From Lactobacillus johnsonii (lineage in GTDB: Bacteria > Bacillota > Bacilli > Lactobacillales > Lactobacillaceae), in NCBI RefSeq assembly GCF_014058685.1, contig NZ_CP059055.1:1674001-1738000 (forward strand): a DNA stretch of 64,000 nucleotides, read 5' to 3'. Both the position numbers and the translations under genes were made by a program. Positions 9,786 through 63,639 of the stretch are shown here, piece after piece (the stretch's first letter is position 1; each line of letters opens with the position of its first letter). The notes beneath the pieces were generated by a model. That model was not told where the DNA came from. It searched no databases and was given only the letters and a program-made list of their open reading frames with translations.

Positions 9786-9810
9786 TATGACAACAAAATT
9801 AATTAAAGCT

Positions 9811-10086
9811 TAGAAAAGATGAGTAATTACTTAAAGCATCCCCCAGAGAGTCGGATTAGGTGCAAGTCGATGTTGCTGATGTAATGAAGATGGTCTTGGA
9901 GCTAAATTAAAGTGCAAGCTAATTTAAGTAAGCAATTTACGATTGACGTTCGTTATCATGTCCGAGTCTTCCAAATGTTGGAGTACTTAGTGAGGAATTA
10001 ATTGTAAGATTAATTCGAATGCAGGGTGGTAACACGCTATTAAGCGTCCCTAGTGTAGTGTAATAACTATACTTGGGGCGCTTTTT
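9811..10086 (+). promoter_or_regulatory. T-box riboswitch, probably tRNA-Met specific
   Basis: The leader has the hallmarks of a T-box. The AGTA loop-E strand is at 9822-9825, the distal-loop element AGAGAGTCGG begins at 9845, and GAAGATGG (9887-9893) carries the likely specifier ATG at 9890-9892. The antiterminator motif AGGGTGGTAACACG lies at 10023-10036, and AAGCGTCCCT pairs with GGGGCGCTTTTT as the competing terminator. The bulge bases TGGT would pair with an ACCA tRNA end, consistent with tRNA-Met. Uncharged tRNA-Met would stabilise the antiterminator and turn on the methionine synthase and luxS genes. A GAU (Asp) reading is possible in an adjacent frame, but gene context favours Met. 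Confidence 0.9.
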
Positions 10087-26341: not shown

Positions 26342-26914
26342 TTATCTAGTAATACTATCTGCACGGCCTTTATAATCACCATTTTCAGTTCCAATAATTA
26401 ATTCTTCGCCTTCCTTAATGAAATCTGGTACAGTTACAACTAAGCCAGTATCCATTGTTGCAGGCTTACCACCACCAGCAGCAGTAGCACCCTTTATTTC
26501 TGGTTGAGTTTCTTTAACTGTCATCTTTACAGTGGATGGTAAGTTAATTCCGATTAATTTACCTTCATCAGTGAACTTAAGGTCTACTTCAATATTTGGC
26601 ATCAAGAATTTAGCTTCTGAAGCTAAATGTTCTTTAGGAATTAAATATTGTTCATAAGTATCTGTATCCATAAAAATAAAGTTAGTGCCATCATCGTAAA
26701 GATATTGTGCTTTTTTCAAGGAAACATTAACTAAGTCTACTTTTTCACTTGGACGCATTGTTTTATGCACAACTGCACCACTCATAACACCACGCAAATC
26801 CATTTGCATAACTGTATTACCTTTACCGGGTTTGTGGTGATTACTCTTTAATACTTCAATCAACTTACCATCTTGGTTAAAAATCATACCTTTTTTTAAT
26901 TCAATTGCTTGCAT
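26342..26914 (-). CDS. efp: Translation elongation factor P
   Basis: This 190-residue EF-P has three beta-barrel domains. The domain I tip carries HHKPGKGN, with the lysine expected to be modified at residue 31; domain III ends in EELIIGTENGDYKGRADS. EF-P relieves ribosome stalling at consecutive prolines. The ATG at 26914 (MQAIELKKG) follows GAGGT. Six residues separate it from coaA, so they form an operon. The His-His before KPGKG and the VMQMDLRGVMSGAVV segment mark a subtype seen in lactobacilli, some of which carry two efp genes. A PPP-containing leader ORF in this window (44648-44692) is a plausible client. Confidence 0.95.
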   Translation of the reverse strand: MQAIELKKGMIFNQDGKLIEVLKSNHHKPGKGNTVMQMDLRGVMSGAVVHKTMRPSEKVDLVNVSLKKAQYLYDDGTNFIFMDTDTYEQYLIPKEHLASEAKFLMPNIEVDLKFTDEGKLIGINLPSTVKMTVKETQPEIKGATAAGGGKPATMDTGLVVTVPDFIKEGEELIIGTENGDYKGRADSITR

Positions 26915-26926
26915 TAACAAATACCT

Positions 26927-43743: not shown

Positions 43744-44490
43744 TTAACGTCTACCTAATTCAGCAATAATTTCTTGATAAAATTCTTCTCTACTTTTACC
43801 ATCTTTTTTAATTTCTTTTCCGATCTTACCATCTTTAATGAAAAGAATTCGACTAGCATATGAAGCAGAATATGGATCGTGAGTAACCATTAAAATAGAA
43901 ACTCTATCATTTTCATTTAGACCTTTCATTGTTTCAAGTAATTCAGTAGCACTCTTTGAATCAAGTGCCCCAGTTGGTTCATCTCCATAAAGAATAGCTG
44001 GTTCATGAACTAATGCACGCGCTGCTGCAACACGTTGTTTTTGTCCACCAGAGATTTCTGCCGGATATTTATTTAAAATATGATCAATTCCTAGTCGCTT
44101 AGCAATTTTATCCACTTTAGGATTAATCTGACTGCTCTTTACATTTTGAAGTGAAAGAGGAAGAGCAATATTTTCACGATTTGTTAGATTTTCTAATAGG
44201 TTAAAATCTTGAAAAATAAACCCAATTTCTTGACCGCGGAAATCTGCCATTTGATTTTTATTTAAGCCAGTAATATCGCGACCATTAATATATACATTTC
44301 CAGTTGTAGGTTGATCTAATGTAGATAAAATATTTAACAAAGTGGTTTTACCAGACCCAGATGCACCCATGATTCCAACAAATTCACCACGTTCCACATC
44401 AAAGCTGACGCCCTTTAAAGCTTGGTATTGTTTTTCACCTTTTTTACCATAAGTCTTAGTAATATTTTGAACTTGAACTACTTCACTCAT
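43744..44490 (-). CDS. BceA-like ABC transporter ATPase
   Basis: This 248-residue ATPase of the MacB/BceA group has Walker A GIMGASGSGKTT, Q-loop GFIFQDFNLL, signature ISGGQKQRVAAARAL, Walker B ILYGDEPTGALD and the H-loop MVTHDPYSASY. It pairs with the FtsX-type permease downstream for defence against cell-wall-active peptides or for envelope maintenance. SD AGAGGAG precedes the ATG. A 30-bp dyad covers the predicted start of transcription. Confidence 0.93.
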   Translation of the reverse strand: MSEVVQVQNITKTYGKKGEKQYQALKGVSFDVERGEFVGIMGASGSGKTTLLNILSTLDQPTTGNVYINGRDITGLNKNQMADFRGQEIGFIFQDFNLLENLTNRENIALPLSLQNVKSSQINPKVDKIAKRLGIDHILNKYPAEISGGQKQRVAAARALVHEPAILYGDEPTGALDSKSATELLETMKGLNENDRVSILMVTHDPYSASYASRILFIKDGKIGKEIKKDGKSREEFYQEIIAELGRR

Positions 44491-44508
44491 TTTGGCTCCT
44501 CTTTTCGT

Positions 44509-44566
44509 TATAGTGCATTACTTACCTGTTACACTATATAATAAAGACACCGTGTAAAAAAGTAAA
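44509..44566 (-). promoter_or_regulatory. Promoter and dyad operator of the BceAB-like operon
   Basis: On the minus strand, TTTACT (44561-44566), 17 bases, TATTAT (44538-44543). The perfect 7-bp arms TATAGTG / CACTATA (44509-44515 and 44532-44538) with a 16-base centre cover the expected transcription start, a position typical of a repressor site. No regulator gene is adjacent. Confidence 0.5.
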
Positions 44567-44637
44567 GCTTGTTTTTCAATTTTTTTATCTTTTCTTCTTG
44601 TATAATAGAAATCGTGATTATAAATAAAATATGAAAT

Positions 44638-44720
44638 GAGGTACAGAATGCAGGGAAGCTACTTCTTCAACCCACCTCCTAAATTTAGATAAATGATAAT
44701 AGTATAGGATTTTTAGGGGG
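44638..44720 (+). promoter_or_regulatory. Candidate translational attenuator of the amino-acid permease
   Basis: CCTCCTAAA (44675-44683), within the leader ORF, is complementary to TTTAGGGGG (44712-44720) over nine pairs with one G-U. This would hide the permease SD. The same anti-SD segment can alternatively pair with the leader's own SD GAGGT (44638-44642). A ribosome paused on the proline codons would occupy the anti-SD segment and free the downstream SD, as in erm-type leader control. Confidence 0.5.
44648..44692 (+). CDS. Leader ORF MQGSYFFNPPPKFR upstream of the amino-acid permease (14 aa)
   Basis: A 14-codon ORF with a good SD (TGAGGT, five bases from ATG) lies 42 bases downstream of a consensus TATAAT (44601-44606) and ends 37 bases before the permease start. 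It contains three consecutive prolines followed by lysine, a sequence that slows ribosomes when EF-P is limiting. The codons CCA CCT CCT AAA carry CACCTCCT, an anti-SD-like sequence, and CCTCCTAAA (44675-44683) can pair with TTTAGGGGG (44712-44720), the SD of the permease. Function is inferred. Confidence 0.55.
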   Translation: MQGSYFFNPPPKFR

Positions 44721-44729
44721 AAAATATTT

Positions 44730-46172
44730 TTGGATACTTTTGATGAGGCACAAAAACGTAAAAAACTAACTTGGCCCGTGATTGCCTTAATGGACTTTGT
44801 TACAGTTATTGGTTTTGATGACATTATCTATAACTTTCAAAATCAAGGATTAGCTGTAGTTAGTGACTGGATATTACTGTTAATTCTATTTGTAGTTCCA
44901 TACGAATTAATCGTCGGACAACTAGGAGCTACTTTTTCAGATGATGGCGGAGGCTTATCTTCTTGGTTAAGACACACCTCTGGCGATCGAATGGGATATA
45001 TTACTGCTTGGTGCTACTGGGTAGTTTCACTACCATATTTAGTTGATGTAGCTAATTCAACAGTTGTTTCTTTTGCATGGCTTTTTAAAGGACATGCATT
45101 AAGTGACAAAGAAATGAGTAATTGGGCTTTTGCTTTATTTACGGCAATTATTTTTGTCATCTTTATCTTTTTCCAACACCGATTTGCTAACTCGCTACAA
45201 TGGTTATCTATCATCGGTGGTGGTGCCATGTTTATCATGACCATTCTTTTTGTAATTATGACTATCGTATATTTGGGTGAAGGCCGCAGAATTGCTACTC
45301 AACCTTTCCACTTTAAGAACTTCTTGCCAACGTTTGATATGAAATTCTTAATGTCATTAGGTTTATTGATTTTTGCCATGAATGGAGCTGAATTTGTTGC
45401 TCCTTACGTTACTGAAATGAAAGATGGCCCTAAGAATTTCCCTAAAGCAATGTACATGCTAGCAATCATGACTGGATTTTTAACTATTTTTGGTTCCTTT
45501 GCATTGGGCGTATTCTTTAATGCACATCACTTACCAGATGACTTAAAAATGAATGGTTCCTACTATGCTTTTCAAGCAATGGGAGAAAAATTCGGAATGG
45601 GTAAATTCTTCTTATATACTTTCATTATTACCCAAGCTCTCTACATGCTTGCCCAACTAGCTGTTTTAGTAGATGGCGGAGCTAGAATTTTCCTATCAGA
45701 CACTGCTAAAAAATATCTACCCAAGCAATTAACTAAGACTGATAAAAATGGTCTACCAATTAATGGTTACTGGCTAACAACTGGAATTTGCTCAGTTTTA
45801 CTATTTTTAAGTGCTACTCTTCCTTCAGTTAATGACATTTTCAATCAATTACTTAATTTAAACGGAATTGTATCACCATATGTTACCGGTCTACTCTTCT
45901 GGGCCTTTATTAAGATCAGACTTCACCCAGAAAAATTCCCATCACAATATGTATTTATCAAGAACAAAACCTTCGCTGTTATTGTTGGTTGGTGGTGTTT
46001 AATCATTACAGTTACCGGTGCAACTTTTGGAATCGTTCCAATTGATGCAAAAGCTGGCTCAGCTACTTGGTGGCATATGTTAATCCTAAACATTGTCGAA
46101 CCTCTTTTAATGATTGGATTAGGAATTGTTTTACCATTAATTGCTAAGTGGCAAAGATCAAAGGAAAATTAA
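44730..46172 (+). CDS. APC-superfamily amino acid permease
   Basis: This 480-residue protein has about twelve membrane helices and resembles the glutamate/GABA antiporter-YjeM branch of the APC superfamily (IALMDFVTVIGFDDIIYNF at the start, FAMNGAEFVAPYVTEMKDGPKNFPKAM in helix 6). It imports or exchanges an amino acid that cannot be named from sequence. Start is TTG at 44730 with AGGGGG nine bases upstream; the in-frame alternatives lack an SD. Expression may be controlled by the upstream PPP leader ORF. Followed by a bidirectional terminator. Confidence 0.9.
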   Translation: MDTFDEAQKRKKLTWPVIALMDFVTVIGFDDIIYNFQNQGLAVVSDWILLLILFVVPYELIVGQLGATFSDDGGGLSSWLRHTSGDRMGYITAWCYWVVSLPYLVDVANSTVVSFAWLFKGHALSDKEMSNWAFALFTAIIFVIFIFFQHRFANSLQWLSIIGGGAMFIMTILFVIMTIVYLGEGRRIATQPFHFKNFLPTFDMKFLMSLGLLIFAMNGAEFVAPYVTEMKDGPKNFPKAMYMLAIMTGFLTIFGSFALGVFFNAHHLPDDLKMNGSYYAFQAMGEKFGMGKFFLYTFIITQALYMLAQLAVLVDGGARIFLSDTAKKYLPKQLTKTDKNGLPINGYWLTTGICSVLLFLSATLPSVNDIFNQLLNLNGIVSPYVTGLLFWAFIKIRLHPEKFPSQYVFIKNKTFAVIVGWWCLIITVTGATFGIVPIDAKAGSATWWHMLILNIVEPLLMIGLGIVLPLIAKWQRSKEN

Positions 46173-62091: not shown

Positions 62092-63639
62092 TTATTCATT
62101 ATTCATTTTTTCAATGTCAATCGTCTTATCCACCCAATTTCCTCTAAAGAAATCTCTCTCGTGGCTAACAATAATTACTCCACCATTAAATTCAACAATT
62201 GCCTTTCTTAAAGAATCTTTTGTAGCAATATCTAAGTGATTTGTTGGCTCATCCAAGAATAGTAAATTGGATGGCTCAAACTGCATCTTAGCAAGCTTGA
62301 CCTTCTCTTGTTCTCCACCAGAAAGCTCTTTTAAAGGACTCATAGCCTGCTGTGCAGTTAACCCCATTCTTGCTAAGGCTTGTCGTAATTCTCTAGGACG
62401 CAGACGTGGAAATTCTTCTTGTAAATATTGCAAAGGCGTCATATTTTTATTAGGCCAAGCTAAATCTTGTTGAAAATAAGCAAGCTTAGCTGTTGAAGAT
62501 AATTCAAAATTACCATAAATTGGTTTTAACTTTCCTAGTAAAGTCTTTAGCAGTGTAGTTTTTCCGATTCCATTAAAACCTGTTACAGCTACCTTTTCCC
62601 CATTTCCAACAGAAAAGTTAAATGCTGATTTTACTAATGCCTGTTCATATCCAATTACTAAATCTTGAGTTTGCAAAAGCAAGTTTGATGCAGTGTCAAC
62701 ATAAGGGAAAAGGACATGCGCCTTTTTATTATTTTGTGGTGGCGTTAAAATTTCCATCTTCGCTAGCTGTTTTTCCCGCGATTTAGCACTTTTAGATCTA
62801 GAACCAGCTTTATTTTTTCTAATATATGCCTCAGTCTTTTGAATTTTTCTCTGCTGGTTGGCATAAGCCTTTAAATAGCTTTCTCGGTCAGCTTCCTTTT
62901 GACGAAGTGCATGCTTTAAATCACCTGTATAGCGCGTAATAGTTCCAAAATCAATGTCAATAATACAGTTGGTGATTCTACCTAAAAAATCATAATCGTG
63001 TGAAACAACGATAAAAGCACCCTCAAAGTTATTCAAATAGTCTGCAAGCCAGTCAATATGATTAACATCTAAGTAGTTTGTCGGCTCATCTAAAACCAGT
63101 ACGTCTGGATTTTGTAAAAGAAGCTTAGCCAAAATCAACTTAGATCTTTGTCCACCAGAAAGTTTTGATACATCCCGGCTATAACCCAAATCCGCTAATC
63201 CTAACCCCGTCGCTACGCGGTCAATTTTGGTATCAATATCGTAAAATTCTTTTTCCTCAAGTAAAGTCTGAATCTTACCTGCCTTTTCTAAGAGAGCTTC
63301 ATCCCCATTTTCACCATATCTCACATAGAGTTCATTTAATTCTTTTTCTTTATCAAAAAGATCACTAAAGGCAGTCTGCAAAAATTCCTTAAGCTCTATA
63401 CCTTCTTCAAGTTTGGCATACTGATCTAAATACCCAACATGAATTTTATTTTGCCATTTAACCTCGCCATTATCTTGAGTAATTTCACCGGTCAAAATCT
63501 TAATTAAAGTTGATTTACCAACTCCGTTTTGCCCTGTTACCCCCATATGGTCTTCTTTATTTAAGACAAAATTTGCGTCTTCATATAAAGTTTTATCAAT
63601 AAATGTCTGACTTAAATTTTTAACTGTTAGTAAACTCAT
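62092..63639 (-). CDS. ABC-F family ATPase (ribosome-associated, YkpA/YbiT-like)
   Basis: This 515-residue soluble protein has two ABC domains and no membrane part. The first has GQNGVGKST, signature KLSGGQRSKLILAKLL and VLVLDEPTNYLD; the second has GFNGIGKTT, ELSGGEQEKVKLAKM and LLFLDEPTNHLD. The linker between them (about 240-310) is charged and helical. ABC-F proteins act at the ribosomal E site in translation or antibiotic protection. Its start overlaps the stop of the upstream membrane protein gene by one base (TAATG). Confidence 0.93.
   Translation of the reverse strand: MSLLTVKNLSQTFIDKTLYEDANFVLNKEDHMGVTGQNGVGKSTLIKILTGEITQDNGEVKWQNKIHVGYLDQYAKLEEGIELKEFLQTAFSDLFDKEKELNELYVRYGENGDEALLEKAGKIQTLLEEKEFYDIDTKIDRVATGLGLADLGYSRDVSKLSGGQRSKLILAKLLLQNPDVLVLDEPTNYLDVNHIDWLADYLNNFEGAFIVVSHDYDFLGRITNCIIDIDFGTITRYTGDLKHALRQKEADRESYLKAYANQQRKIQKTEAYIRKNKAGSRSKSAKSREKQLAKMEILTPPQNNKKAHVLFPYVDTASNLLLQTQDLVIGYEQALVKSAFNFSVGNGEKVAVTGFNGIGKTTLLKTLLGKLKPIYGNFELSSTAKLAYFQQDLAWPNKNMTPLQYLQEEFPRLRPRELRQALARMGLTAQQAMSPLKELSGGEQEKVKLAKMQFEPSNLLFLDEPTNHLDIATKDSLRKAIVEFNGGVIIVSHERDFFRGNWVDKTIDIEKMNNE

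Follow-up and report, generated by a model that had tools for sequence, protein, structure and literature searches.

The short open reading frame (ORF) MQGSYFFNPPPKFR, which precedes a gene for an amino-acid permease in Lactobacillus johnsonii, is probably a translational attenuator governed by an arrest leader peptide, in which a stalled ribosome would expose the permease Shine-Dalgarno (SD) sequence. Judged from comparison of sequences, it has company: leaders with a proline motif, combined with a hidden SD, upstream of this permease clade very probably constitute an undescribed family of ribosome-stalling switches. An initial annotation of the locus had proposed an attenuator in which a stall exposes the SD in response to proline or EF-P. 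That proposal stands in outline, given the conserved Pro-motif leader, the SD hairpin and a geometry that suits ribosome footprints, but the signal it named does not.

The leader, the permease gene and the predicted helix between them

Coordinates refer to the window, that is, the whole 64-kb stretch of DNA that was analysed. The leader ORF (MQGSYFFNPPPKFR*, 44648-44692, plus strand) has, as initially annotated, an SD of its own, GAGG (44638-44641, plus strand), which is read directly from the sequence and kept in L003, L004 and L049. The 14-residue peptide contains Asn-Pro-Pro-Pro, then three residues at its end. This core (AAC CCA CCT CCT, 44669-44680, plus strand), the presumed stall site, is invariant in the leaders of the genus that carry FNPPP (class A) and fits the N-x-x-P pattern shared by the wider family. 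With the AAA that follows, its codons (44669-44683) include CACCTCCT, the 3'-end sequence of 16S rRNA, which bears out the claim that the proline codons hold an anti-SD sequence. A pattern scan of viral contigs for YFFNPPP gave 16 matches.

A -10-like TATAAT (44601-44606, plus strand), kept in L003, L004 and L049-L051, is a probable promoter of leader and permease; a consensus promoter scan gave no forward match and left it unflagged. It would put the transcript start upstream of the leader. No terminator-like site was found in 44490-44760, which spans the leader to the permease start, and the gap from the leader stop to that start is 37 nt. The only Rfam matches in the window, neither of them at the leader, are a T-box (9802-10054), which precedes genes resembling methionine synthase (10263) and luxS (11360), and a COG3610-DE RNA (RF03066; 60697-60812, minus strand) directly 3' of two same-strand genes that look like a split threonine/serine exporter. 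The window also holds an ABC-F family ATPase-like gene (62092-63639, minus strand); such proteins can resolve Pro-related stalls, but nothing was seen that connects this gene with the leader.

The gene downstream (44730-46172, plus strand) encodes a 480-residue amino-acid permease of the APC superfamily, placed by Pfam matches (PF13520, PF00324) and profiles as a distant relative of GadC and YjeM. It scores far below the GadC and YjeM cut-offs and reaches no NCBIfam cut-off, and the only relative with a solved structure that was found is GadC (E 1e-8). Its TTG start aligns with an ATG in two same-genus relatives. The gene is monocistronic, and gene neighbourhoods of the permease, compared for a clue to the substrate, contained no consistent partner enzyme. 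A paralogous permease in the same genome (G000:C1:1924518-1925957, minus strand; locus L097) is preceded by a KPPN-type leader, VNSNTLMIVLKPPNLEDRI, and at that locus CCTCCAAA could pair with TTTGGGGG at the SD.

The leader and the permease SD are linked by a predicted helix, supported by sequence, folding and covariation, with a 5' arm CCTCCTAAA (44675-44683) and a 3' arm TTTAGGGGG (44712-44720), both on the plus strand; it begins in the leader proline codons and covers the permease SD, AGGGGG (44715-44720). Its nine pairs (CCUCCUAAA:UUUAGGGGG), eight Watson-Crick and one G-U, confirm the nine-base pairing of the initial annotation. The pairing of the same segment with the leader's own SD, also proposed there, exists but is weak, consisting of GAGGU:ACCUC only, 5 bp in L. 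johnsonii and 4 bp in L003. Opening the permease SD at this locus is predicted to cost 6.5 kcal/mol, but 1.2 kcal/mol once a ribosome footprint occupies the motif. Against shuffles that keep the CC-rich proline codons and the GG-rich SD, the 9-bp pairing at this locus alone has a z of 0.2, a neutral outcome because the pairing joins the SD to motif codons that the shuffling leaves intact. Taken alone, then, the pairing is what proline codons facing an SD would be expected to give, so the case beyond chance rests on the relatives.

Conservation within the genus and across lactobacilli and enterococci

Within the genus, FNPPP is kept among the leader peptides (MQGRYFFNPPPKFK, MQGSYFFNPPPKFK, MQGSHFFNPPPKFM, MRSKNKSHYILDLFSFYFFNPPPLFN, MRSENKTNQILDLFSFYFFNPPPASFI, MLQQELRNFFSVLFSFYNFNPPPFY, MLQQELKNFFSELFSFYYFNPPPFLFKRKN) while both flanks and the stem sequence vary, and the core codons change synonymously (Asn AAC/AAT; Pro CCA/CCC/CCT/CCG). 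Scanning 75 genomes of the genus for the FNPPP coding pattern recovered orthologues of the leader before this permease in ten genomes; the remaining matches were long frames, or short frames without such context, and all short SD-led FNPPP ORFs in this genus-wide scan lie upstream of this permease. The stem has changed with its pairing kept in L003 and L004 (CCUCCUAAA:UUUAGGAGG), L052 (CCUCUUUUU:AAAAAGAGG), L053 (CUUCUUUC:GAAAGAAG) and L055 (CCUUUUUUA:UAAAAAAGG), and in L054 CCUUUUAUUAA pairs with UUAAUAAAAAGG with one bulge. In a fixed register, chosen by hand and comprising six distinct rows, two-sided changes affect 5 of 12 pairs, and covariation is 0.339 as against 0.137 in shuffled alignments (0/500 shuffles as high); slid registers gave 0.081-0.300. 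The conservation of PPP codons and pairing that the initial annotation suggested looking for in relatives is thus found, with FNPPP kept and compensatory pairs in the stem. Its further expectation, that relatives with the permease should not lack the leader, holds in part: leader and motif are both absent from L056-L063, same-genus permeases with 78-85% identity, but other same-genus relatives keep both.

In Lactobacillaceae and Enterococcaceae, cognate leaders accompany permeases of this clade. Their core is YRNKPPC/S in Enterococcus and RNKAPG/S in Lacticaseibacillus; a paralogous Lactobacillus permease has KNKSPG, Loigolactobacillus has RKNKSPG and QNNPP, and L. gallinarum and L. ultunensis have NNSPP. 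RNKPPG is also present among leaders of other genera, and RNKEPG and RNKGPG are further single-proline cores. The general form is N-[KNSP]-[PASEG]-P, plus K-P-P-N variants, and all leaders contain at least one proline. Leader length ranges from 9 to 37 residues, with 6-12 residues preceding the core proline in most. The codons for Asn, Lys and Pro vary freely across these cores, so it is the peptide, not the RNA, that is conserved.

Motif leaders are present at 35 of 80 named permease loci, as counted with a motif pattern that was drawn up after the data had been inspected and is in that sense fitted; the script returned 36, one of which, MVTEKPPR, was excluded as a chance match inside a hairpin (L006/L125), and motif leaders at L074, L096, L099 and L232 that failed the SD filter are uncounted. 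For other genes in the same loci the figure is 1 in 313, the single case being a further permease of the family, which leaves none among about 312 unrelated genes. YjeM-like outgroup permeases have none either (0/20), nor was any leader or motif found in permeases of the genera Pediococcus, Bombilactobacillus and Latilactobacillus. An order-level scan with the pattern Y/F-R-N-K-P/A-P showed, in the first 30 or so loci inspected, that the SD-led short frames with a gene close behind again precede this permease family. Motif classes group together on the permease tree (8 changes versus 38 in shuffles), and leader absence requires at least six changes, implying repeated gains or losses; the leaderless relatives would accordingly fit repeated gain or loss, not a lack of function where the leader exists.

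Several members of the clade differ in what follows or replaces the leader. In Loigolactobacillus (L025, L027, L140) a stretch of 130-180 nt containing long inverted repeats separates the QNNPP leader from the SD, which suggests a more elaborate attenuator. A third permease class (L225, L227, L228, L236, from other Lactobacillus) has FKNKSP[GS] leaders with strong hairpins behind them, such as CTTTTCTAGTAAAAT...ATTTTACTAGTAGAAAAG, that extend into the SD. Leaderless Companilactobacillus orthologues (L118, L119, L121, L124, L127, L139) carry a conserved 5' stretch with a AAGGGGTGTATTTCCGATGGGG end, often with an inverted repeat ahead of it, of which TTTTAGAAC...GTTCTAAAA is an example; these orthologues may be controlled in another way.

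Predicted sequestration of the SD extends over the family. Across 66 distinct leaders, the predicted cost of SD opening has a median of 5.8 kcal/mol; shuffling the sequence from motif to SD lowers this to 4.1 kcal/mol, and a ribosome footprint placed over the motif lowers it to 2.0 kcal/mol. In a uniform 122-nt segment the median is 6.2 kcal/mol for leader-bearing permeases (n=61), versus 3.0 kcal/mol for leaderless permeases (n=86, p=3e-7) and 3.1 kcal/mol for other genes (n=234, p=5e-10), these p-values being overstated because the sequences are related. In a few leaders (L064, L217, L228, L236) the SD is predicted to be unhidden. Automatic permease starts were wrong at L094, L097, L103, L104, L106 and L222, and three of these were corrected. 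Two features expected of a translational attenuator are present, namely a short SD-led ORF upstream of the gene that is conserved at the peptide level, and a downstream SD sequestered, by prediction and covariation, in structure overlapping the stall region.

The distance between motif and SD is also constrained. Among 51 short-gap leaders, 40 have 33-43 nt from the last proline codon of the motif to the SD (median 38, sd 5.3 nt), and the MQGSYFFNPPPKFR leader has 37 nt; the distance from stop to SD is looser (sd 10.8 nt). Given the size of ribosome footprints, this spacing fits a stalled and an initiating ribosome together, and room for both at once means that stalling should induce rather than block the permease.

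Proposed ribosome stalling and its alternatives

In the resting mRNA, the hairpin would pair with the permease SD and keep initiation low, its 5' arm sitting in or just past the leader core codons. A ribosome on the leader would pause as the Asn-x-x-Pro core (here Asn-Pro-Pro-Pro) gets to the peptidyl-transferase centre, would cover the 5' arm and release the SD about 37 nt downstream, and a second ribosome would then have space to initiate the permease. The nascent peptide itself would be recognised in the ribosome, like other Pro-ended arrest peptides, with the arrest tuned by a cellular condition linked to the permease substrate. We infer that ribosomes stall and that stalling induces rather than represses; that the core acts via the nascent chain is suggested by the ordered nature of its conservation. 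A more specific version, which we advance tentatively and would not yet call the expected outcome, is that these very short arrest peptides of lactobacilli and enterococci, with their Asn-Lys/Pro-Pro core, allow nascent peptide and ribosome to sense a small molecule (the permease substrate or product), free the SD and switch on an amino-acid antiporter.

The signal originally envisaged would make the leader a sensor in which Pro-Pro-Pro pauses ribosomes, and so induces the permease, only under a shortage of prolyl-tRNA or EF-P activity. PPP is indeed a strong EF-P-dependent pause, every leader of the family has at least one proline, and the Salmonella leaders mgtP and mgtL answer to EF-P (PMC6460261); with these as precedents, such a sensor is possible for the PPP class. 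Against it, many cognates (RNKAPG, KNKSPG, RNKEPG, RNKGPG) have a single core proline yet retain Asn-Lys, so what the leaders share is neither a run of proline codons nor a polyproline target of EF-P, and arrest of the RAPP type can be refractory to EF-P (PMC12992588). The presence of efp in the same window had been cited in support, but that gene (26342-26920) lies about 18 kb away and is unlinked to the leader. As an account of the locus we consider this sensor unlikely.

Less probable again is uncontrolled coupling, whereby translation of the leader briefly opens the hairpin or aids reinitiation, giving constant low permease with nothing sensed and the proline motif merely slowing ribosomes. 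The proximity of the leader stop to the permease start would suit it, and any translating ribosome would presumably melt the stem, but it leaves without explanation an ordered N-x-x-P core kept over many genera while the rest is free, and a motif-to-SD distance that is tighter than stop-to-SD. Transcription attenuation, with the pause choosing between terminator and antiterminator, we regard as very improbable: the long, repeat-bearing gaps in Loigolactobacillus would accommodate it, but the interval searched around the leader is free of terminator-like sites and the gap in most leaders is too short. That a random short ORF has met fortuitous CC/GG pairing is scarcely credible, for although the MQGSYFFNPPPKFR pairing alone would allow it, it is contradicted by the conservation of the peptide across species, its exclusive linkage to the gene and the sequestration of the SD.

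Relation to known systems and implications

Leader-peptide attenuators and Pro-ended arrest peptides are already known; the core, target and length of the permease leaders are not in the literature searched, which excludes most subscription journals and in which no description of the leader motifs or of such Lactobacillales leader peptides was found. Erm-type attenuators, which are induced by drugs, release a sequestered SD when a ribosome stalls on a short leader peptide; we know of no sequence relation between these and the permease leaders.

Also close to the arrest proposed here are SecM and the RAPP-like (RQH) arrest peptides, which include ApdA, ApdP, ApcA and YwcI (PMC10951233, PMC10987492, PMC12992588); cores of the RAPP/RAPG type, x-A-P-P/G, can bring ribosomes to a halt when near the peptidyl-transferase centre (PMC10951233). 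The RQH peptides likewise have a Pro-ended core, (R/Q/H)-(A/G/D)-(P/G/S)-(P/G), in an upstream ORF, and stalling in SecM and uDF_RQH unfolds a stem-loop that conceals a downstream SD. They are, however, longer (100 residues in YwcI) and are mostly exported or membrane-targeted monitors, chiefly of Sec/YidC genes, whereas the permease leaders control amino-acid permeases through a core, N-[KNSP]-[PASEG]-P or K-P-P-N, without a required Arg. The RQH core is not matched by MQGSYFFNPPPKFR, which has N-P-P-P, nor by the family (N-K-[PASEG]-P-[GSC], K-P-P-N), in which the first position is Lys or Asn and rarely Arg (LRPPN). Nor do the 6-12 residues that most members have before the core proline leave space for a signal sequence that would direct export or membrane targeting.

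The mgtP and mgtL leaders resemble MQGSYFFNPPPKFR in being ORFs with proline codons before a transporter gene, three of them consecutive in mgtP, but they act by transcription attenuation (PMC6460261, PMC5299641), and what they have in common is proline codons, not an Asn-x-x-Pro core. Consecutive prolines are conserved in the FNPPP class and not in the NKAPG and KNKSPG cognates, and 44490-44760 has no attenuator terminator stem-loop. In Rhodobacter, a Pro-rich stall-like motif in the upstream ORF CutF unfolds a stem-loop shielding the ribosome-binding site of cutO (PMC9973294); CutF is an exported copper-binding protein, unlike the tiny permease leaders, which are without an export signal. 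Salmonella mgtQ is also a small ORF that, by altering an alternative stem-loop, favours the translation of a transporter, although it reportedly depends on ribosome-destabilising acidic residues and not on its proline codon (PMC8092293).

If the reading of MQGSYFFNPPPKFR and its relatives as arrest peptides is right, they would form a family with a new short core motif, acting beyond protein secretion in many food and gut bacteria, and working, in most members, with only 6-12 nascent-chain residues before the core proline. The natural variants NPPP, NKPP, NKAPG, NNSPP and KPPN would offer a series for identifying which residues near proline cause the stall, and likewise which metabolite or factor relieves it. 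The family would also provide a regulatory clue to this permease subfamily.
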